Origin: an uncultured Cellulophaga sp.
GTDB lineage: Bacteria; Bacteroidota; Bacteroidia; Flavobacteriales; Flavobacteriaceae
Direction: 5' to 3'
Assembly (NCBI GenBank): GCA_947491225.1
Contig: CANLIE010000013.1
Span: 1-64,000 of the forward strand
DNA length: 64,000 nt
Positions 17,666-28,177 of the stretch are shown here, piece after piece. A program made the position numbers and the translations under genes. Below the pieces are notes generated by a model, which saw nothing but the letters and a program-made list of their open reading frames with translations, had not been told where the DNA came from and ran no database searches. The number at the start of each line of letters is the position of its first letter. Positions within the stretch are counted from its first letter, which is position 1.

Positions 17666-18481
17666 ATGAAAGAATTACAGAAAACCATAGAAACAGCTTG
17701 GGAAAACCGAGATTTTTTAAAAGAAAAAGAAACGCAAAAAGCAATAAGAGAAGTAATTGATCTTATTGATAATGGAAAATTAAGATGTGCAGAACCAACG
17801 TCAAATGGTTGGCAGATAAATGAGTGGGTAAAAAAAGCAGTGGTTCTTTATTTTCCAATTCAAAAAATGGAAACTTTAGAAGCTGGTATTTTTGAGTACC
17901 ATGATAAGATGCCACTTAAGAGAGGGTATGCAGAAAAAGGCATACGGGTAGTTCCTAACGCTGTAGCAAGACATGGGGCTTACATTTCTCCTGGTACTAT
18001 ATTAATGCCTAGTTATGTTAACATTGGAGCTTATGTAGATGAAGGAACAATGGTAGACACTTGGGCTACAGTGGGTAGTTGTGCTCAAATAGGGAAAAAC
18101 GTACATTTAAGTGGCGGTGTTGGTATTGGTGGTGTTTTAGAACCCTTGCAAGCTTCTCCTGTGATTATTGAAGATGGTGCATTTATTGGCTCTAGGTGTA
18201 TTGTTGTAGAAGGTGTGAGAATAGAAAAAGAAGCAGTTTTAGGTGCCAATGTTGTGCTAACAATGAGTACAAAAATCATTGATGTAACTGGTGATAAGCC
18301 TATTGAAATGAAAGGTAGAGTTCCTGCTAGGTCTGTTGTAATTCCTGGTAGCTACACCAAAAAATTTGCGGCAGGTGAATACAATGTACCTTGTGCTTTA
18401 ATTATTGGAAAACGTAAAGAAAGTACAAACAAAAAAACATCTTTAAATGATGCCTTACGTGAATATGACGTGGCTGTTTAA
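17666..18481 (+). CDS. dapD: Tetrahydrodipicolinate N-succinyltransferase
   Basis: A 271-residue left-handed beta-helix acyltransferase of the lysine/diaminopimelate pathway; it succinylates tetrahydrodipicolinate from succinyl-CoA. An N-terminal helical domain (1-100) precedes the hexapeptide repeats (ISPGTILMPSYVNIGAYVDEGTMVDTWATVGSCAQIGKNVHLSGGVGIGG split across about 105-165). The C-terminal arm ends NDALREYDVAV. Normal length. LysA, the last step, is encoded at 54.0 kb in the same window but far away. Single gene converging on the GT-D-like gene. Confidence 0.96.
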   Translation: MKELQKTIETAWENRDFLKEKETQKAIREVIDLIDNGKLRCAEPTSNGWQINEWVKKAVVLYFPIQKMETLEAGIFEYHDKMPLKRGYAEKGIRVVPNAVARHGAYISPGTILMPSYVNIGAYVDEGTMVDTWATVGSCAQIGKNVHLSGGVGIGGVLEPLQASPVIIEDGAFIGSRCIVVEGVRIEKEAVLGANVVLTMSTKIIDVTGDKPIEMKGRVPARSVVIPGSYTKKFAAGEYNVPCALIIGKRKESTNKKTSLNDALREYDVAV

Positions 18482-19459: not shown

Positions 19460-20494
19460 GTGAACATTGCTATTATTGAAGTTTCAGAATCTCATGAAGA
19501 ATGTATTTATAGCCAAGTTTCTTTTTTAAAAGATGCTGGGCATAATATAGACTTATTTATACACCCTAAAATAAAATCACAAATTAATGATTATGTACAC
19601 TTAATAAAAAACATTACTATTATTGATTTTGAAACGCCTTCTTTGTTTCATAGATTAAAGCTTCAACAACGTTTATTTAATAATTTAAAAAAATATGACC
19701 GCATTGTTTTTAATACGGCAAGCTCTTCTAAAACAGTTAGAAATTTATGTGTTTTATTAAAATTCTCAAAAGTGGAATGCATTGGTATATTACACAATGT
19801 AAAAAAACTGGAAAAGAGCTTTACACAACGTATAATATCCTACAAAATAAAAAAATACTTTGTTTTAAATGATTTTCTAAAATTGAACAAAAAACCAAAA
19901 AATATAAAAATTGAAAGTTTCTATCCCATTTTTTTTCCAAAATATGATAAAGATAATACTATTAAAAAAGAACATATTTGGATTACTATACCAGGTAGAA
20001 TTTATTTTGACAAAAGAGACTACCACTCATTATTAGATATGCTGGAGAATCAAAAAATTCCAACTGAATTAAAATTTATAATTCTAGGCAATATAAATAC
20101 CAAAGATGGTTCTAACTTTATGGAATCTATTTTGAACAAAGGGTTAAAAAATCATTTTATGTTTTTTCAAGAACATATTTTAAATCGAGATTTTTACAAT
20201 TATATAGATAAATCTGATTATATTATGCCTCTTTTACAAAAAGAAGGGAAAAACTATTTGCAATACAAAATTACAGGAGCTTTTAATCTAGCATTTGCCT
20301 TTAAAAAAAGGCTCTTTTGTGAAAAAGATTTTAATTGTATTCCTGATTTAAAACAAAATGGTATTTTTTATACTGAAGAAAATTTCATCAGCTCTTTGCA
20401 TAAAGTTTTACATAAAGAAAAGAATGAAATTTATAAAGACAAAAAGTGGAGTTATACATACCAGAAGAACAGATACATTAACTTTATAGAATAG
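19460..20494 (+). CDS. GT-B type glycosyltransferase, divergent
   Basis: A 344-residue protein with a GT-B layout: an N-terminal Rossmann half (MNIAIIEVSESHEECIYSQVSFLKDAGH) and a C-terminal half with TIPGRIYFDKRDYHSLLDML and a donor-site-like YIMPLLQKEGKNYLQYKITG near 265-285. The usual EX7E motif of GT4 is not evident, so it is a distant member. The start is GTG (19460), because the overlapping ATG two bases earlier is followed at once by a stop; a TATTTTTG -7-like box is at 19438-19445. Its 3' end overlaps the opposing GT2 gene by 11 bases. Probably assembles a surface glycan; sugar unknown. Confidence 0.65.
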   Translation: MNIAIIEVSESHEECIYSQVSFLKDAGHNIDLFIHPKIKSQINDYVHLIKNITIIDFETPSLFHRLKLQQRLFNNLKKYDRIVFNTASSSKTVRNLCVLLKFSKVECIGILHNVKKLEKSFTQRIISYKIKKYFVLNDFLKLNKKPKNIKIESFYPIFFPKYDKDNTIKKEHIWITIPGRIYFDKRDYHSLLDMLENQKIPTELKFIILGNINTKDGSNFMESILNKGLKNHFMFFQEHILNRDFYNYIDKSDYIMPLLQKEGKNYLQYKITGAFNLAFAFKKRLFCEKDFNCIPDLKQNGIFYTEENFISSLHKVLHKEKNEIYKDKKWSYTYQKNRYINFIE

Positions 20495-21257
20495 TATTAT
20501 ACTCTCTCCTTTTGTTTTCATTATATAGCTTATAATACTTTAAAAAAAAGTAGAAATAACAAAAAATTGCTAAATAAAACCCTCTAAACCCATCTAAAAA
20601 CCCCAATCTAAAAATATACATTTTAACAAACTGAAATATTGGAGCAAAAAAGACTTTAAACAAAGATATTCTCTTCTTGGTATCTGCATTACTTTTAGCA
20701 ATATTAGTTGTGTATGAATTCATTTTAGCAACATGATCTTCTAAATTTTTGTATGTATAATGATTTATAGGAGCTTTTATATGGCCAATGCTTTGAGTGG
20801 TTTCCCAATAAGCATGTACATATTTTTCTTTAATATGACCTGAGTTTTTTTTAAATAAAATTCTTTTTGTTGTTGCGCTCCATCCACCAAAATGAATGGG
20901 TTTATTAAGCACATAGCTAACCATTCTAACTTTATAAACATTAAATTGGTTATTATTCTTATATACTATATCCTTTATAACTGTTTTTAACTTATCTGAG
21001 ACTACTTCATCTGCATCTATAAGCAATATCCATTCTCCTTTGCACTTATTAATAACAGATTGCTTTTGCAAACCATCACCTTTCCAATCTTCACTATAAA
21101 ATCTAACCTTTGAATACTTTGTTGATATTAATTTAGTATCATCAGTAGAATTTGAATCAACAATAACAACTTCATCTACAAAATCATGAATTGCCTCTAA
21201 TGTTCTTTTAATATTAAAAGCTTCGTTATATGTTATAATTGCAACAGATAATTTCAT
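20484..21257 (-). CDS. WaaE/KdtX-like family 2 glycosyltransferase
   Basis: A 257-residue GT2 enzyme of the type that adds a hexose to the LPS inner core (WaaE/KdtX). Seen: SVAIITYNEAFNIKRTLEAI (4-23 region), VIVDSNSTDDT, GDGLQKQSVINKCKGEWILLIDADE with the DxD, and FGGWSATTKRILFKKNSG. The C-terminal signature FVKMYIFRLGFLDGFRGFYLAIF, membrane-associated, is shared with the C-terminal half of the fusion protein at 24.3-26.2 kb, so the two are paralogues. It is divergent from the next GT4 gene. Confidence 0.85.
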   Translation of the reverse strand: MKLSVAIITYNEAFNIKRTLEAIHDFVDEVVIVDSNSTDDTKLISTKYSKVRFYSEDWKGDGLQKQSVINKCKGEWILLIDADEVVSDKLKTVIKDIVYKNNNQFNVYKVRMVSYVLNKPIHFGGWSATTKRILFKKNSGHIKEKYVHAYWETTQSIGHIKAPINHYTYKNLEDHVAKMNSYTTNIAKSNADTKKRISLFKVFFAPIFQFVKMYIFRLGFLDGFRGFYLAIFCYFYFFLKYYKLYNENKRREYNTIL

Positions 21258-21436: not shown

Positions 21437-22552
21437 ATGAAGATAGGTTTTGATGCTAAAAGAATTTTCCATAACGATACAGGGTTAGGAAATTATGGAA
21501 GAGATTTAATTAGGATTCTATGCCAACATACACCAGTTAAAAAACTTATCTTATACAATACAAAACTTCCAAAAAAGCATAAAGTATACAATTCTCCTAA
21601 AATTAGTATAGAATATCCTAAATCATGGTTTTGGAAAAAATTATCATCTATTTGGAGGATTAGTGCAGTAAAAAACCAGATAGCGAAAGACAAACTTTCC
21701 TTATATCATGGCCTTACAGGTGAAATACCTTTTGGGCTATCTAAAAAGAACATACCAAGTATTGTTACTATTCATGATTTAATTTTTATTAGTCACCCAC
21801 AATACTACTCTGCCATTAATAGATATATATATACTATTAAATTTAAGTATGCAGTAAAAAATGCAGATAAAATCATTGCAATTAGTGAACAAACGAAACG
21901 AGATATTTTAAAATATTCTAATGTTAATGAAGAAAAAATAGCTGTTGTTTATCAAGGGTGTAATGTTGCATATAAAAAGGAGTATGATTTTTCTGCAAAG
22001 GATAAAGTGAAAAAAAAATACAACTTACCAGAAGAGTTTATCTTAAATGTAGGCACAATACAAGAGCGTAAAAATGCTTTGCTAATTGTAAAAGCGATAA
22101 GAGGTACTTCTAAACAATTGGTTTTAATTGGTAATGAAGAGGCTTATGCTCAAAAAATAAGACTATATATACAAAAACATGAACTTAGAAAACAAGTGCA
22201 TTTTTTAAAAAATGTAGAACTAGAAGAATTATCCATAATTTACCAATTAGCAACAGTGTTTTGTTATCCCTCTTTGTGCGAAGGTTTTGGAATACCTATT
22301 ATAGAAGCATTATATAGTAAAACACCTGTAATTACAACAAAAGGAAATTGTTTTCCTGAAGCTGGTGGACCAGATTCTATTTATATTAAAATTAATGATG
22401 AAGATGATTTACGTAAAAAAATAAACAATCTATTCGCTAACTCAGATCTAAGACAGAGTATTGCAGAAAAAGGCTTAGTTTATGCGCAACGTTTTAATGA
22501 TGATGTGACTGCAAAAAATTTATATAACGTATATAAATCTCTCATCAGATGA
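21437..22552 (+). CDS. Glycosyltransferase family 4
   Basis: A 371-residue GT-B enzyme of family GT4. N-terminal acceptor half opens MKIGFDAKRIFHNDTGLGNYGRDL, typical of mannosyl/rhamnosyltransferases such as WbaZ/MtfB-type. The C-terminal half contains FILNVGTIQERKN (donor-binding start, about 198-210) and the EX7E motif in CEGFGIPIIEALY (about 280-292). Starts at ATG 21437; its stop overlaps the next GT4 start (ATGA at 22549), indicating coupling. Role: extension of an LPS or capsule oligosaccharide with a retaining linkage. Confidence 0.9.
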   Translation: MKIGFDAKRIFHNDTGLGNYGRDLIRILCQHTPVKKLILYNTKLPKKHKVYNSPKISIEYPKSWFWKKLSSIWRISAVKNQIAKDKLSLYHGLTGEIPFGLSKKNIPSIVTIHDLIFISHPQYYSAINRYIYTIKFKYAVKNADKIIAISEQTKRDILKYSNVNEEKIAVVYQGCNVAYKKEYDFSAKDKVKKKYNLPEEFILNVGTIQERKNALLIVKAIRGTSKQLVLIGNEEAYAQKIRLYIQKHELRKQVHFLKNVELEELSIIYQLATVFCYPSLCEGFGIPIIEALYSKTPVITTKGNCFPEAGGPDSIYIKINDEDDLRKKINNLFANSDLRQSIAEKGLVYAQRFNDDVTAKNLYNVYKSLIR

Positions 22553-23634
22553 AAAGAATTTGTTTTATAAACAGTGTTAAAACATGGGGAGGTGGAGAAA
22601 AATGGCATTTTGAAGCTAGTACATATATGCATAAAAAAGGCTATGATGTTTTAGTAATTACTAACAAAAAAAGTGAACTTTACAACAAATTAAAAAACAC
22701 AAATATTACTTCTGTTGGCATTAAAATAAATAATTTTAGTTTTCTAAATCCATTTAAAATCAATACATTAAAAAAAATATTAAAACAACATAATATAGAT
22801 ACCATTGTCATTAATCTTTCTGAAGATTTAAAATTAGGAGGATTAGCTTCAAAAAGAGCTGGTGTAAAGAAAATAATATACCGTAGAGGTAGCGCTATAC
22901 CCATAAAAAACAGTTTCCTAAATAGATATTATTTTAAAAACATAGTCACAGATATTATAGCAAATTCTGAAGCTACCAAACGTACAGTTTTAGAAAATAA
23001 CAATAAACTATTCCCTATTGAAAAAATAAAAGTTATTTACAACGCCATAGATTGTAAAAAACACTCAAAAACATCTCCTCCCTACTATCAAAAAACAGAT
23101 AACAACCATATAAGAATAATTAGTCTAGGTAGGCTAGAATATGAAAAAAATCATAAGTTTTTAATTTATCTATCTAAAGAATTAAAAGAAAGAAACATAA
23201 AACATAAAATTCTTGTTGGAGGAGAAGGCTCATTAAAAGAGAGCTTAATAGAGCAGTCTAAAAAACTTAAAGTAGATAAAGAGATTAGTTTTCTAGGTTT
23301 CATAGATAATCCAAAAGAATTATTACAAAGTGCAGATATATTTATACACCCGTCTTTATGGGAAGGGTTTGGTTATGTATTAGCAGAAGCATCACTATAC
23401 AAAAAACCTGTGATTGCTTTTAACACCACAAGTATTCCAGAAATAATAGTGCATAAAAAAAGTGGATTTGTCGTAGAGCCAAATAATATAAAAAAAGTTG
23501 CTAACGTAATAGAACTTTTAGCATCTAATAAAAAGCTTAGAGATGATTTGGGTTTGTATGGTCATAATTTTGTGACTGAAAATTTTGACAGTTCAATCAT
23601 ATATAAACAAATGGAAGATTATTTAATTAGTTAA
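22549..23634 (+). CDS. Glycosyltransferase family 4
   Basis: A 361-residue GT4 enzyme. The N-terminal half has the glycine-rich VKTWGGGEKWHFEAS, the C-terminal half RIISLGRLEYEKNHKFLI (about 190-207), then KILVGGEGSLKESL and the EX7E motif in WEGFGYVLAEASLY (about 272-285). No membrane segments. It overlaps the preceding gene by four bases and is followed after 31 bases by the nucleotidyltransferase gene. It resembles LPS core heptosyl/glucosyltransferases of the WaaG class, but the donor cannot be read from sequence. Confidence 0.9.
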   Translation: MKRICFINSVKTWGGGEKWHFEASTYMHKKGYDVLVITNKKSELYNKLKNTNITSVGIKINNFSFLNPFKINTLKKILKQHNIDTIVINLSEDLKLGGLASKRAGVKKIIYRRGSAIPIKNSFLNRYYFKNIVTDIIANSEATKRTVLENNNKLFPIEKIKVIYNAIDCKKHSKTSPPYYQKTDNNHIRIISLGRLEYEKNHKFLIYLSKELKERNIKHKILVGGEGSLKESLIEQSKKLKVDKEISFLGFIDNPKELLQSADIFIHPSLWEGFGYVLAEASLYKKPVIAFNTTSIPEIIVHKKSGFVVEPNNIKKVANVIELLASNKKLRDDLGLYGHNFVTENFDSSIIYKQMEDYLIS

Positions 23635-23665: not shown

Positions 23666-24352
23666 ATGAAAATAGTAATACTTGCAGCAGGAATTGGCTC
23701 TAGATTAGGAAATCCTTTTCCAAAACCCCTAACAAAATTAAATAATGGAAAAAGCATTATGCAAATGCAAATAGAAAATTTGTGCACTGTTTTTAATGTT
23801 AATGATATTAGTATAGTTGTAGGTTTCAAAAAGGATTTAATCATGGAACGTTTTCCTGAAGTTAATTATATTTATAATCCATTTTTTGATTGTACCAATA
23901 CTTCAAAAAGCTTGCTACGCGCATTAATAAAAAATAGAGAACAATCTGTACTTTGGCTAAATGGTGATGTAGTTTTTGATGCAAAATTGCTAAAAACTTT
24001 GCTTCCATACATAAAAAAAGAAAAGTCGTTTGTAGCAGTAAATACTAGCTGTGTAGCAGAAGAAGAAGTTAAATACACTCTGGAGAAAGGATATATTAAT
24101 AAACTCTCTAAGACAGTCAAAAATGGATTAGGAGAAGCTGTAGGTATAAACTTCATATCACAAAAAGATAACACAACATACATTAAACGTTTAAAAGAAT
24201 GCGATGATAATGACTATTTTGAGAAAGGATTAGAGCTTGCCATTGAAAAAGATAATTTAAACATAAAAGCAGTAGATATATCTAAATACAACTGTTTAGA
24301 AGTAGATTTTAAAGAAGATTTAGAAAACGCCAACACGCTATTTTATAAATGA
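23666..24352 (+). CDS. LicC-like nucleotidyltransferase
   Basis: A 228-residue NTP-transferase that activates a phosphorylated small molecule as an NDP derivative. Seen: IVILAAGIGSRLG (nucleotide loop, residues 3-15), PFPKPLTKLNNGKSIMQ, NPFFDCTNTSKSLLRAL (about 72-88, the LicC/phosphocholine cytidylyltransferase-like segment), NGDVVFD (metal Asp near 100), EAVGINFIS and the final LEVDFKEDLENA. LicC and relatives make CDP-choline; sugar-phosphate relatives make CDP- or UDP-sugars. The next gene overlaps by four bases and encodes a CDP-glycerol-type transferase, so it may supply that enzyme's donor. The substrate is inferred from that context. Confidence 0.8.
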   Translation: MKIVILAAGIGSRLGNPFPKPLTKLNNGKSIMQMQIENLCTVFNVNDISIVVGFKKDLIMERFPEVNYIYNPFFDCTNTSKSLLRALIKNREQSVLWLNGDVVFDAKLLKTLLPYIKKEKSFVAVNTSCVAEEEVKYTLEKGYINKLSKTVKNGLGEAVGINFISQKDNTTYIKRLKECDDNDYFEKGLELAIEKDNLNIKAVDISKYNCLEVDFKEDLENANTLFYK

Positions 24353-26166
24353 AAGTAATTTTATTTTGTCAAAACGCTTATGCTTTTGGTATCCTAAATC
24401 CTATTAAAAAAGTTTTAGTAGAAAAGGGAGACAATTTCTTATGGTATATAGACACTAAACTTATTTCTGTTTTCCCGTATAAACAAGATAATCATACTGT
24501 AAGAATTGCAGATTTACAAGCTTATAAAAGTGATATTATTTTTGTTCCAGGTAATGAAGTTCCGTATTACCTTAGAGGTCTAAAAGTGCAAATATTTCAT
24601 GGGCTGGCTGGTGAAAAAAAAGGACATTTTAGAATTAGGCATTATTTTGATTTATACTTTACACAAGGTCCTTATTTTACCAAACGTTTTTTAGAATTCA
24701 AGGAAAAATACAAAAACTTTGATGTTATAGAGACTGGCTGGCCTAAATTAGATGTCTATGGACAAGAAAAAGGTACATATTCTTCTGAAAAAATAGAGCT
24801 TTTAAAAAAATACAACAGTAAAAAAATAATATTATACGCACCTACTTTTTCACCTAGTTTAACTTCTGCTCCATTTTTAATAAACGAAATTAGAAAATTA
24901 GCAAAAAACACCACTTATTTAATACTTATTAAATTTCACGATTTAATGAGTAAAAGCTTAATTGAATCATACAAAAAATTAGCTGTTGAGGTAAATAATA
25001 TTCTTTTTATTGAAGAAAAAAACATTATTAAGTACTTATTGTTGGCAGATTTAATGATTAGCGATACGTCATCTGTAATATATGAATTTCTACTTTTAGA
25101 TAAACCAGTAATTACGTTTAAAAACATTAACAATAAAATATTTTGGGACAATTCAATTTCATATGATAATCTAAGTTTAAAAATTAAAGACAACTTAAAA
25201 AATGACCCTTTTGCAACTGAAAGAAATTATATAAATAAACAATATCACCCCTATACAGATGGCAAATCTGCATATAGAATGGTTAAGGCTGCTAAAAATT
25301 ATATTTCTAAGAACGGTGTTCCTAATGAAAGAAAATTACCAGTAGATAGAATATTGAAAATAAATAATTTATTTGGCAAATCAATTACCAGCCTTTTTAC
25401 AGATAAAAAAGAGCAGAAGTTAAGTGCTTTAGTCATAACTTATAATGAGATTAGAAATATTGAAGCTCTTATAGAGAATTTAAAATTTGCTGATGAAATT
25501 ATTATTGTAGACTCATTCAGTACAGATGGGACTGTTGAGAAAATTAAACAATATTCCAATATAAAACTCATTCAAAGACCCTTTAAAAATTATACTGATC
25601 AAAAAGCATATACACTTGATTTAGCTTCTAATAAATGGGTTTTATTCTTAGATGCCGATGAAAGAATTCCAGATGCTTTGCAACATGAAATATTAGCTGT
25701 TATAAATAACAAAAACCATACAACTGTTGCATTTAAAGTATACAGAGTTTTTATGTTTAAAAATAAAATACTTCGTTTTTGTGGTTGGCAAAATGATAAA
25801 AACTATAGACTATTCAATAAAGAAAAAGTCAGCTTTTCCACAAAAAGAATTGTACATGAAACGTTAAATGTTAATGGAAAATCCTCAATACTAAAAAACA
25901 AACTCATACATTATGCTTACTATGATTATAACATCTACAAAGAGAAAAGAATTAAATATGAGCAATTAAAAGCTAAAGAAGATTTTGAGCAAAACAAAAC
26001 AGCCACCCCATATCACTTATATTTAAAACCATTAGGTAAGTTTATAGAACACTATATAGTTAAATTAGGATTTTTAGACGGAAAAAAAGGTATAACCATT
26101 AGCTATCTTTATGCATTGGCAACTAAAGAGCGTTATAAAAAATTAAAACAGTTACGTAATGACTAA
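24349..26166 (+). CDS. Fusion: CDP-glycerol-type phosphotransferase + WaaE-like GT2
   Basis: A 605-residue two-domain enzyme. Residues 1 to about 325 resemble CDP-glycerol/ribitol glycerophosphotransferases (TagB/TagF): KVQIFHGLAGEKKG near 80-92, ILYAPTFSPS near 163, LIKFHDLMSK near 195, and LLLADLMISDTSSVIYEFLLLDKPV near 230-255, including the conserved SD-S-V-YE motif. After a short linker, residues about 362-605 are a GT2 domain: ALVITYNEIRNIEAL, IIVDSFSTDGT, LFLDADERIPDAL and the WaaE-type end GKFIEHYIVKLGFLDGKKG. It would transfer a polyol phosphate and a sugar during core or capsule assembly. Overlaps both neighbours; the GT2 half is paralogous to the gene at 20.5 kb. Confidence 0.85.
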   Translation: MKVILFCQNAYAFGILNPIKKVLVEKGDNFLWYIDTKLISVFPYKQDNHTVRIADLQAYKSDIIFVPGNEVPYYLRGLKVQIFHGLAGEKKGHFRIRHYFDLYFTQGPYFTKRFLEFKEKYKNFDVIETGWPKLDVYGQEKGTYSSEKIELLKKYNSKKIILYAPTFSPSLTSAPFLINEIRKLAKNTTYLILIKFHDLMSKSLIESYKKLAVEVNNILFIEEKNIIKYLLLADLMISDTSSVIYEFLLLDKPVITFKNINNKIFWDNSISYDNLSLKIKDNLKNDPFATERNYINKQYHPYTDGKSAYRMVKAAKNYISKNGVPNERKLPVDRILKINNLFGKSITSLFTDKKEQKLSALVITYNEIRNIEALIENLKFADEIIIVDSFSTDGTVEKIKQYSNIKLIQRPFKNYTDQKAYTLDLASNKWVLFLDADERIPDALQHEILAVINNKNHTTVAFKVYRVFMFKNKILRFCGWQNDKNYRLFNKEKVSFSTKRIVHETLNVNGKSSILKNKLIHYAYYDYNIYKEKRIKYEQLKAKEDFEQNKTATPYHLYLKPLGKFIEHYIVKLGFLDGKKGITISYLYALATKERYKKLKQLRND

Positions 26167-26749
26167 CAAACCTGATACACACAGCAATTTCTCTTCGGAA
26201 ATCAATAAGTGTATTGAAATTTTAAATGCAGGTGGAATCATATTATACCCCACAGATACTGTATGGGGCATAGGTTGTGATGCTACCAATGAAAATGCTG
26301 TAAACAAAATATATAAACTAAAGAAAAGAAACAACACCAAAACAATGATATGTCTTGTTGCTAATGATTTTATGTTGGAAAAACATGTAGCGAAAATTCC
26401 AGAAGTAGCTTATGATATTATTGATATCGCGGAAAAACCAACCACCATAGTATATGACAACCCTAAAGGTATTGCCAAAAATTTAATTGCAGAAGATAAT
26501 AGCTTGGCAATTAGAGTTGCCTCAGATAAATTTTGTCAATATCTAATCCAAAAGTTCAAGAACCCCATTGTATCTACTTCTGCAAATCTAGCAGGACAAC
26601 CAACGCCCAAAAGTTATAAAGAAATAAGCACAGAGATTTTAAAAGGTGTAGACTATGCCGTAAATTTGCAGCGTAACGAGCAAAAGGACACTCCTTCATC
26701 CATTATTAAGCTTAGCAATAATGGTATTGTAAAGGTTATTCGTAAATAA
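26159..26749 (+). CDS. tsaC: L-threonylcarbamoyladenylate synthase
   Basis: A 196-residue YrdC/Sua5-family enzyme that makes threonylcarbamoyl-AMP from threonine, bicarbonate and ATP for the t6A37 modification of ANN-decoding tRNAs. Seen: GGIILYPTDTVWGIGCDATNENAV (about 25-48), IYKLKKRNNTKTMICLV, LAIRVASDKFC and PIVSTSANLAGQPTP. It is the short TsaC form without the Sua5 domain. Its start overlaps the end of the fusion glycosyltransferase by eight bases, linking a core tRNA gene to the glycan operon's transcript. Confidence 0.95.
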   Translation: MTNKPDTHSNFSSEINKCIEILNAGGIILYPTDTVWGIGCDATNENAVNKIYKLKKRNNTKTMICLVANDFMLEKHVAKIPEVAYDIIDIAEKPTTIVYDNPKGIAKNLIAEDNSLAIRVASDKFCQYLIQKFKNPIVSTSANLAGQPTPKSYKEISTEILKGVDYAVNLQRNEQKDTPSSIIKLSNNGIVKVIRK

Positions 26750-26752
26750 AAA

Positions 26753-28177
26753 ATGACGCAAAAAAACTACAAAGACGCAATTATAAATCCTGTTTTTTCA
26801 ATTATAGCAGAAGCTGCAACAGAACTTAATGTAGATTGTTATGTAATTGGGGGTTTTGTACGTGATTTTTTATTAAAAAGAGGAACTCCTACCGATATTG
26901 ATATTGTAGCTGTTGGTAGCGGTATAGAACTAGCACAAAAAGTAGCACAAAAGCTTCCAAACTTACCAAAAGTATTTGTTTTTAAAAACTTTGGAACTGC
27001 TATGCTTAAGTATGATGAAATGGAACTAGAATTTGTAGGAGCACGTAAAGAAAGTTACCACAGGGACAGTAGAAAACCTATTGTAGAAGATGGTTCTTTA
27101 GAGGACGATCAAAACAGGCGGGATTTTACCATAAATGCTATGGCAATCTCTTTAAATAAATCTAATTATGGTGAGTTATTAGATCCTTTTAATGGTATAA
27201 ATGATTTACAAAATAAAATTATTAAAACCCCATTAGAGCCAAGCATTACATATTCTGATGATCCTTTACGAATGATGAGAGCTATTCGTTTTGCAACACA
27301 ACTACAATTTAACATCAATGAAGATTCATTTTCATCAATTATAAAAAATAAAGACAGAATAAAGATTATTTCCAAAGAAAGGATAGTTGATGAATTGCAT
27401 AAAATAATTGCAAGTAAAAAACCCTCTATAGGTCTTGCTTTATTACACAAAGCTGAACTTCTTCCTTATATTTTACCCGAATTAAATGCTTTACAAGGTA
27501 TTGAAGAAATTGAAGGTCAAAAACACAAAGATAATTTCTGGCATACATTAGAAGTAGTGGACAACATCTCTATACATACTGAAAATTTATGGTTACGTTG
27601 GGCTGCCCTCTTGCATGACATTGGTAAAGCCCCGACCAAAAAATTTCATAAAAAAATTGGATGGACGTTTCATGGGCATGAATTTGTTGGCTCAAAAATG
27701 GTTTACAAACTATTTAAACGCTTACGAATGCCGTTAAATGACAAAATGAAATATGTACAAAAAATGGTATTGATGAGTTCTAGACCAATAGTTTTATCTG
27801 AAGATTTTGTGACAGACTCTGCCGTTCGTCGTTTAATATTTGATGCAGGTGAAAACATAGATGATTTAATGACACTGTGTGAAGCAGACATAACTACGAA
27901 AAACCCTATTAAACAAAGAAAGTATCACAATAATTTTAAGCTGGTACGTCAAAAAATAATAGAAGTAGAAGAAAGAGATCATATCCGTAACTTTCAGCCT
28001 CCTATAAGTGGAGAAGAAATTATGAAAATTTTCAATTTAAAACCTTCAAAAGAAATAGGCATTCTTAAAGAAGCCATAAAAGAAGCCATTTTAGAAGGTA
28101 CCATACCCAATGAGTATGATGCAGCTTATGATTTTATGCATCAAAAAGGAAAAGAAATGGGTTTAAAAAATAGCTAA
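26753..28177 (+). CDS. cca: CCA tRNA nucleotidyltransferase with HD domain
   Basis: A 474-residue class II nucleotidyltransferase that adds or repairs the CCA end of tRNAs. Seen: [25 protein letters not shown] (31-55; catalytic D48 and D50), [12 protein letters not shown] (motif B, about 124-135), [16 protein letters not shown] (motif C/D, about 165-180) and an HD domain with [14 protein letters not shown] near 285. The HD domain and length are standard for Bacteroidota CCA enzymes. It starts four bases after tsaC, so the two tRNA genes form a unit. Confidence 0.95.

Follow-up and report, generated by a model that had tools for sequence, protein, structure and literature searches.

A TagF-like domain fused to a glycosyltransferase in Cellulophaga, and its upstream nucleotidyltransferase: a gene pair predicted to attach a phosphodiester-linked group to the lipopolysaccharide core

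Chains that join a TagF-like phosphotransferase domain to a glycosyltransferase (GT) domain are already established in Gram-negative bacteria. The capsule polymerases of Actinobacillus and Neisseria are defined by this pairing; in TagF-like capsule polymerases, among them Cps1B, Cps3D, Cps7D and Bcs3, the TagF-like domains have two catalytic histidines and can move glycerol phosphate or hexose phosphate (PMC5974469). A chain of the same general kind is encoded in a stretch of 64,000 nucleotides from an uncultured marine Cellulophaga sp. (assembly GCA_947491225.1, contig CANLIE010000013.1, positions 1 to 64,000; hereafter the window). In this protein of 605 residues a TagF/TarL-like domain (N) precedes a family 2 glycosyltransferase (GT2) domain, and the gene directly upstream encodes a nucleotidyltransferase, here named NTP. 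Judging from sequences and predicted structures, we put a probability of about 0.7 on the reading that the two genes form a module for phosphodiester decoration of the lipopolysaccharide (LPS) core, in which the transferase has been fused to a neighboring core glycosyltransferase.

Compared with the capsule polymerases, the Cellulophaga protein is a short form with another domain order. In the polymerases the TagF-like domain either follows a GT-A domain or is followed by a GT-B domain, whereas here the GT-A (GT2) domain is C-terminal. Most of them contain a domain rich in tetratricopeptide repeats (TPR), and as a group they serve group 2 capsules, while the 605-residue fusion has no TPR, lies in an islet of LPS-core type and has relatives in which its two parts are separate genes. 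The wall teichoic acid polymerases TarL and TagF share with N the GT-B fold of PF04464, the FHG and KxH histidines and an SD-x-SS motif. Nevertheless, N has no N-terminal extension, no polymer is expected, and the proposed donor enzyme has a LicC fold in place of TagD/TarI. A search limited to the open-access literature found no earlier description of the fusion.

The fusion is encoded on the forward strand at 24349-26166 and NTP (228 residues) on the same strand at 23666-24352, the two open reading frames sharing four bases, ATGA. The AlphaFold models have a mean predicted local distance difference test score (pLDDT) of 89.6 for the fusion and 91.9 for NTP. Pfam and the model place N at residues 1-323 (24349-25317), an interdomain linker at about residues 324-352 (25318-25404) and the GT2 domain at about residues 353-605 (25405-26163). 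An earlier sequence-only reading of this DNA had proposed TagB/TagF-like residues 1-325 fused to a C-terminal GT2, with a LicC-like nucleotidyltransferase encoded upstream in a four-base overlap. All of these elements were recovered. Since the full-length fusion recurs across independent assemblies, an assembly artefact was ruled out: 10 of 17 further Cellulophaga genomes encode it, as do 34 of the 80 loci that a bacterial genome scan for the N domain returned from named assemblies. Chance similarity was ruled out by the scores, the folds and the conserved residues.

PF04464 covers residues 110-312 of the fusion (E = 7.9e-18; score 65 bits, cut-off 22.1). The predicted model of residues 1-323 is a GT-B fold that aligns with TagF (VIA-align; Z = 20.7, rmsd 4.5 over 310 residues) and with TarL (Z = 20.0, rmsd 4.2 over 292 residues). 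Because the fold alone cannot tell a phosphotransferase from an epimerase, the sequence profile and the histidines were used for that distinction. Cps3D ranks among the best matches of known structure; the profile of N matched TarL with E = 3.2e-17 and Cps3D with E = 5.4e-12, whereas the best UDP-GlcNAc 2-epimerase reached E = 5.1e-4. By profile, then, N is nearer in sequence to the phosphotransferases than to the epimerases of the same fold. Two histidines, His84 in an FHG motif (24598-24600) and His197 in a KFH motif (24937-24939), were kept in 93 of 93 N homologues (in the homologue sets used for conservation a few sequences are counted twice, once via each collection). Both align with a canonical PF04464 member, His84 with its FHG motif and His197 with the K-x-H that it shares with TarL. 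The corresponding histidines are important in TagF enzymes (PMC5974469), and the pair is predicted to be catalytic in N. In many Flavobacteriaceae this islet slot is occupied instead by a second family of PF04464-like proteins, with about 30% identity to N and no NTP gene (loci L161-L169, for example L163:7700-8776). Its aligned members keep both histidines and may use another donor.

NTP resembles the LicC, PntC, IPCT and CpgD cytidylyltransferases (PMC6697681, PMC12275187) in its fold, its GxG(S/T)R-x5-PK motif and its metal Asp. It was assigned to PF12804 (E = 4.8e-15), and by profile its nearest solved relatives are PntC (E = 6.5e-8) and LicC (E = 1.3e-5). The predicted model matched PntC best (Z = 25.1), followed by LicC (Z = 23.9, rmsd 2.3 over 215 residues) and IPCT (Z = 22.9). 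NTP thus combines this fold with the LicC-type motif GxG(S/T)R-X(4-8)-PK, which it carries as G9-x-G11-S12-R13-x5-P19-K20, kept in all 42 sequences aligned. R13, K20 and D101 make up a triad (Arg/Lys/Asp) resembling the one in the CpgD family. Unlike PntC, however, NTP has Asn99, invariant in the 42 sequences, at the position of Glu104 in Tde-PntC, the acidic residue that touches the substrate amine (PMC6697681). The invariant Asn99-Gly-Asp is found in one solved sugar-phosphate nucleotidyltransferase, and NTP shows weak matches to such enzymes. Its surroundings also differ from a LicC-type lic neighborhood with choline kinase and LicD, as its neighbor is a PF04464 transferase.

The nature of the donor was less clear. 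The sequence-only reading had suggested CDP-polyol or CDP-choline, a proposal left unproven by Asn99 in place of the acidic residue and by the gene content. No licA or choline kinase, transporter or LicD was found in the islet of the window, and the whole genome gave LicD matches below cut-off only. TagD was ruled out as a donor source in this genome, which has no TIGR01518 match. The genome's only PF13714 protein over the cut-off lacks the EDK-X5-NS motif of phosphoenolpyruvate (PEP) mutase, and in the absence of a genuine PEP mutase a phosphonate donor is disfavored. In addition, no kinase or dehydrogenase travels with NTP. Taken together, the missing TagD and PEP mutase and the lack of a kinase or dehydrogenase beside NTP suggest a donor made from a common metabolite (glycerol phosphate, phosphoglycerate) or a sugar phosphate. 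CpgD, a phosphoglycerate cytidylyltransferase (PMC12275187), offers a comparison case. Candidate donor groups are a polyol, a glycerate or a hexose phosphate.

The coupling of the two genes is close. NTP lies directly upstream of N in 77 of the 80 loci, mostly at a spacing of -4 to +11 bp, and two of the three loci lacking it there sit at contig ends. Within Cellulophaga, all 10 testable genomes with N also had NTP; of the others, G013 had NTP next to a distant relative of N, and the remaining 6 lacked both (Fisher p = 0.0006, phylogeny ignored). Among 395 genomes sampled evenly from the order, 7 encode NTP, each time adjoining N. In other lineages both genes have other partners. In Solidesulfovibrio carbinolicus an NTP homologue (49% identity) again shares four bases with the adjoining gene, a canonical PF04464 member (E = 2.1e-51) with only 25% identity to N. 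In Bacteroides finegoldii an N homologue (45% over its full length) belongs to the same row of genes as a TagD-type cytidylyltransferase, for which profile comparison with NTP showed no relation, as expected for two different folds. Similarly, genome G037 has a 52% N homologue near a glycerol-3-phosphate cytidylyltransferase (above the NCBIfam cut-off), with LicD there too. NTP thus has two PF04464 partners that diverge from each other, and the cytidylyltransferases that accompany N belong to two unrelated folds. Of all the observations, this exchange on both sides speaks most strongly for a CDP-activated donor of N. Moreover, LicD and a TagD-type gene occur together in 26 of 27 loci; where both systems share an islet, LicD pairs with the TagD-type gene, which leaves NTP as the partner of N.

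In the proposed mechanism, NTP would couple what is presumably CTP with a small phosphorylated compound or a sugar phosphate, yielding a CDP- (or NDP-) donor. For N we infer transfer of the phosphoryl group together with its substituent from this donor to a hydroxyl on the growing core. The C-terminal GT2 domain would add a sugar to the same oligosaccharide, and the fusion probably holds two consecutive or adjacent core-building steps together.

The GT2 assignment rests on PF00535 at residues 359-476 (E = 3.1e-17) and on the predicted model, in which residues 351/353 to 575-593 align with the GT2 enzymes SunS and ThuS (Z = 19-20; fold match at residues 353-593). These comparisons covered the general GT2 family and fold; the sequence-only reading had likened the domain more narrowly to WaaE. 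The DxD-type metal/nucleotide motif is intact as D435-A436-D437 (25651-25659), kept in 42 of 42 fused homologues. The gene GT2a (20484-21257, reverse strand), which the sequence-only reading had taken as a paralogue, is a remote relative with about 30% identity and falls in a different clade.

The fused GT2 lineage has other partners. In four sister species of Cellulophaga the orthologous GT2 domain is joined to a GT4 domain, which in the window is the stand-alone gene GT4b (22549-23634, forward strand). In the GT2 tree the fused domains of both kinds group together, apart from the stand-alone GT2 genes, and the GT4-fused domains fall in two places. Approximately unbiased (AU) tests rejected a single clade of GT4-fused domains (p = 0.03) and also a single N-fused clade (p = 0.03). 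According to the tree, N and GT4 have been swapped at least twice in this lineage. In G015, a genome with the GT4b-GT2 form, both flanks match the window and the stretch from NTP through the end of N is missing, so an in-frame deletion from a window-like ancestor is a simple route from N::GT2 to GT4b::GT2, although the direction of the change is not proven. Related GT2 domains elsewhere are fused to GT9 or to a second GT2. Repeated fusion of this kind suggests a shared oligosaccharide as the substrate of the joined partners. A broader proposal follows these lines, to which we would give slightly less than even odds: the LPS core of Flavobacteriaceae may be made by interchangeable fusion enzymes, in which one GT2 lineage stays fused and swaps its N-terminal partner (TagF-like or GT4) and related GT2 domains have joined GT9 or GT2, and the TagF-like version may add an undescribed phosphodiester substituent by way of a new cytidylyltransferase subfamily, NTP. 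A GT2-GT2 fusion was also seen at L059:1511-4516 beside SDR-like and IspD/TarI-like genes, an arrangement suggestive of CDP-ribitol synthesis.

The closest named relatives of the window are C. fucicola and C. omnivescoria, and the fusions of the other Cellulophaga genomes are 57-76% identical to it. The fused loci come from Cellulophaga, Arenibacter, Maribacter, Muriicola, Croceitalea and others. In the remaining 46 of the 80 loci N is a separate gene of about 345 codons (Lutibacter, Flavobacterium, Winogradskyella, Salinimicrobium, Christiangramia and others), which indicates that fusion is not required for function. Close N homologues were found in 10 of the 395 genomes of the order, and N is widespread but patchy there. 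Where dS could be estimated, dN/dS was about 0.05-0.15 for N and for the GT2 domain, consistent with strong purifying selection; the linker had the highest dN of the segments compared and is the fastest-evolving.

The target of the module was judged from the surrounding genes. The islet is variable and bounded by dapD (72 of 80 loci) and by sua5 or pcnB (71 of 80). In relatives it can contain a homologue of the kinase for 3-deoxy-D-manno-oct-2-ulosonic acid (Kdo)/WaaP (27 of 80), a heptosyltransferase-like GT9 (17 of 80), LicD (31 of 80), a TagD-type cytidylyltransferase (27 of 80) or Stealth proteins (8 of 80), as well as pyruvyl transferases. Because Kdo-kinase and heptosyltransferase genes are frequent in these islets, the LPS core is the likeliest target. 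With regard to a group 2 capsule cluster, the genes seen in the relatives' islets were those for Kdo kinase, GT9 and LicD. The lipooligosaccharide (LOS) clusters of Bacteroides (BT3362-BT3380 type), which were found by way of the GT9 and Kdo-kinase gene pair (PMC5850320), are similar in having these two genes and many glycosyltransferases. The B. finegoldii cluster has both and holds the N homologue, but differs in having no fusion and a TagD-type cytidylyltransferase. Core chemistry offers hints for both a sugar-phosphate donor and one made from a common metabolite: a phosphodiester attaches a monosaccharide to the core of Arenibacter certesii (PMC3210612) and glyceric acid to that of Shewanella pacifica (PMC4052302). 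The fusion was present in 13 of 13 Arenibacter loci fetched, A. certesii not being among them. For the wider family the LPS-core assignment, made from gene neighborhoods, is strong; for Cellulophaga itself it is indirect. The sequence-only reading had predicted a phosphate-linked decoration of the lipid A core or capsule made by one bifunctional enzyme. Its core context agrees with the neighborhoods of the relatives.

Several observations weigh against the proposed module. The fold of N is as near to UDP-GlcNAc 2-epimerases (Z of about 22) as to TagF, and the Arg that follows APTF in TarL is replaced by Ser168. The second PF04464-like family fills the islet slot without NTP, so the wider family may include enzymes that use other donors. 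N also occurs without NTP in L122, in two metagenome-assembled genomes (MAGs) about 60% complete, and in G037, which has TagD instead. In L122, a single-cell genome, and in the incomplete MAGs (L157 and L158) true loss and incompleteness are indistinguishable. Finally, the islet of the window has neither Kdo kinase nor GT9, its genome has no PF06293 match, and the single GT9 of the genome lies outside the islet; the LPS-core assignment for Cellulophaga consequently rests on synteny.

Four other explanations were considered. One is a sub-case of the proposed module that differs in the donor: N would be a hexose-1-phosphate transferase and NTP would make a nucleotide sugar, so that a sugar is linked to the core through a phosphodiester. 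The activity of the capsule polymerases on hexose phosphate, the Arenibacter core and the Asn99-Gly-Asp of NTP are all in keeping with this. Nevertheless, PntC and LicC, the closest solved profile relatives of NTP, use small non-sugar substrates, and N homologues in other lineages pair with TagD-type cytidylyltransferases, so that we consider a hexose donor possible but somewhat unlikely. The fold similarity to epimerases, together with a PF02350 match on N (E = 2.1e-7) and the remote relative that works in the same slot without NTP, would fit a loss of phosphotransfer, N then being an ordinary member of the glycosyltransferases in the GT-B/epimerase superfamily and NTP making its nucleotide sugar. 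This is unlikely, as the profile matches to TarL and Cps3D are better by many orders of magnitude, both TagF histidines are invariant, and the cytidylyltransferases found with N have two unrelated folds.

Decoration with phosphocholine, phosphoethanolamine or aminoethylphosphonate, with NTP as a true LicC or PntC, would account for the best profile and fold matches of NTP and for the AepZ-like aminotransferase that adjoins the Bacteroides N homologue. Such a donor is very unlikely in view of the missing choline genes, the PF13714 protein without the PEP mutase motif, and Asn99 at the place of the amine-contacting glutamate. Even less probable is a TagF-like polymerase building a teichoic-acid-like capsule. 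The pairing of domains in one chain is that of the Actinobacillus and Neisseria capsule polymerases, but the domain order differs, the TPR-rich domain is missing, close relatives carry the domains as separate genes, and their neighborhood is of LPS-core type. The module for phosphodiester decoration of the core is thus preferred.

In the window, the islet begins after dapD (17666-18481, forward strand, named from homologues) and ends at sua5/yrdC (26159-26749) and a pcnB-like gene (26753-28177), both on the forward strand. Besides the module it contains a GT-D-fold glycosyltransferase (PF08759; 18490-19398, reverse strand), GT2a and two GT4 genes, GT4a (21437-22552, forward strand) and GT4b. 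A protein of 344 residues without a Pfam match (19460-20494, forward strand) has orthologues, 52-55% identical, at this locus in two sister species and is possibly an undescribed glycosyltransferase. HAD-like, LicD and TagD-type genes form another module (L067:4199-5812), which recurs in many of the islets that carry N.

Further loci with homologues of the module were noted. The row in B. finegoldii (L177:6446-12468) is of LOS type and consists of a lipoteichoic acid (LTA)-synthase-like protein, Kdo kinase, the N homologue, the AepZ-like aminotransferase and the TagD-type cytidylyltransferase. On plasmid pDMC1 of Solidesulfovibrio magneticus (L178:5778-10209), the NTP gene, which stands beside a PF04464 gene, is truncated next to a Tn3 family transposase; on the sister plasmid of S. 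carbinolicus the NTP gene is whole. A viral-classed IMG/VR contig of 202 kb encodes an NTP homologue (54%; L173:4989-5705); no PF04464 gene was apparent in the 5 kb around it, and inspection by eye showed a Cas3-like gene close by. No literature on phage-resistant Cellulophaga mutants hitting the islet was found.

If the proposed module is correct, it would provide a genetic handle on core decorations that marine Bacteroidota attach through phosphodiesters; their chemistry is known, as in A. certesii, and as far as we found no gene has been assigned to them. It would also give a name to a cytidylyltransferase subfamily, NTP. Exchange of the partner of the GT2 half probably remodels the bacterial surface, and the locus would then be one where surface chemistry may shift by exchange of fused domains, which is relevant to phage receptors and to the evolution of LPS.

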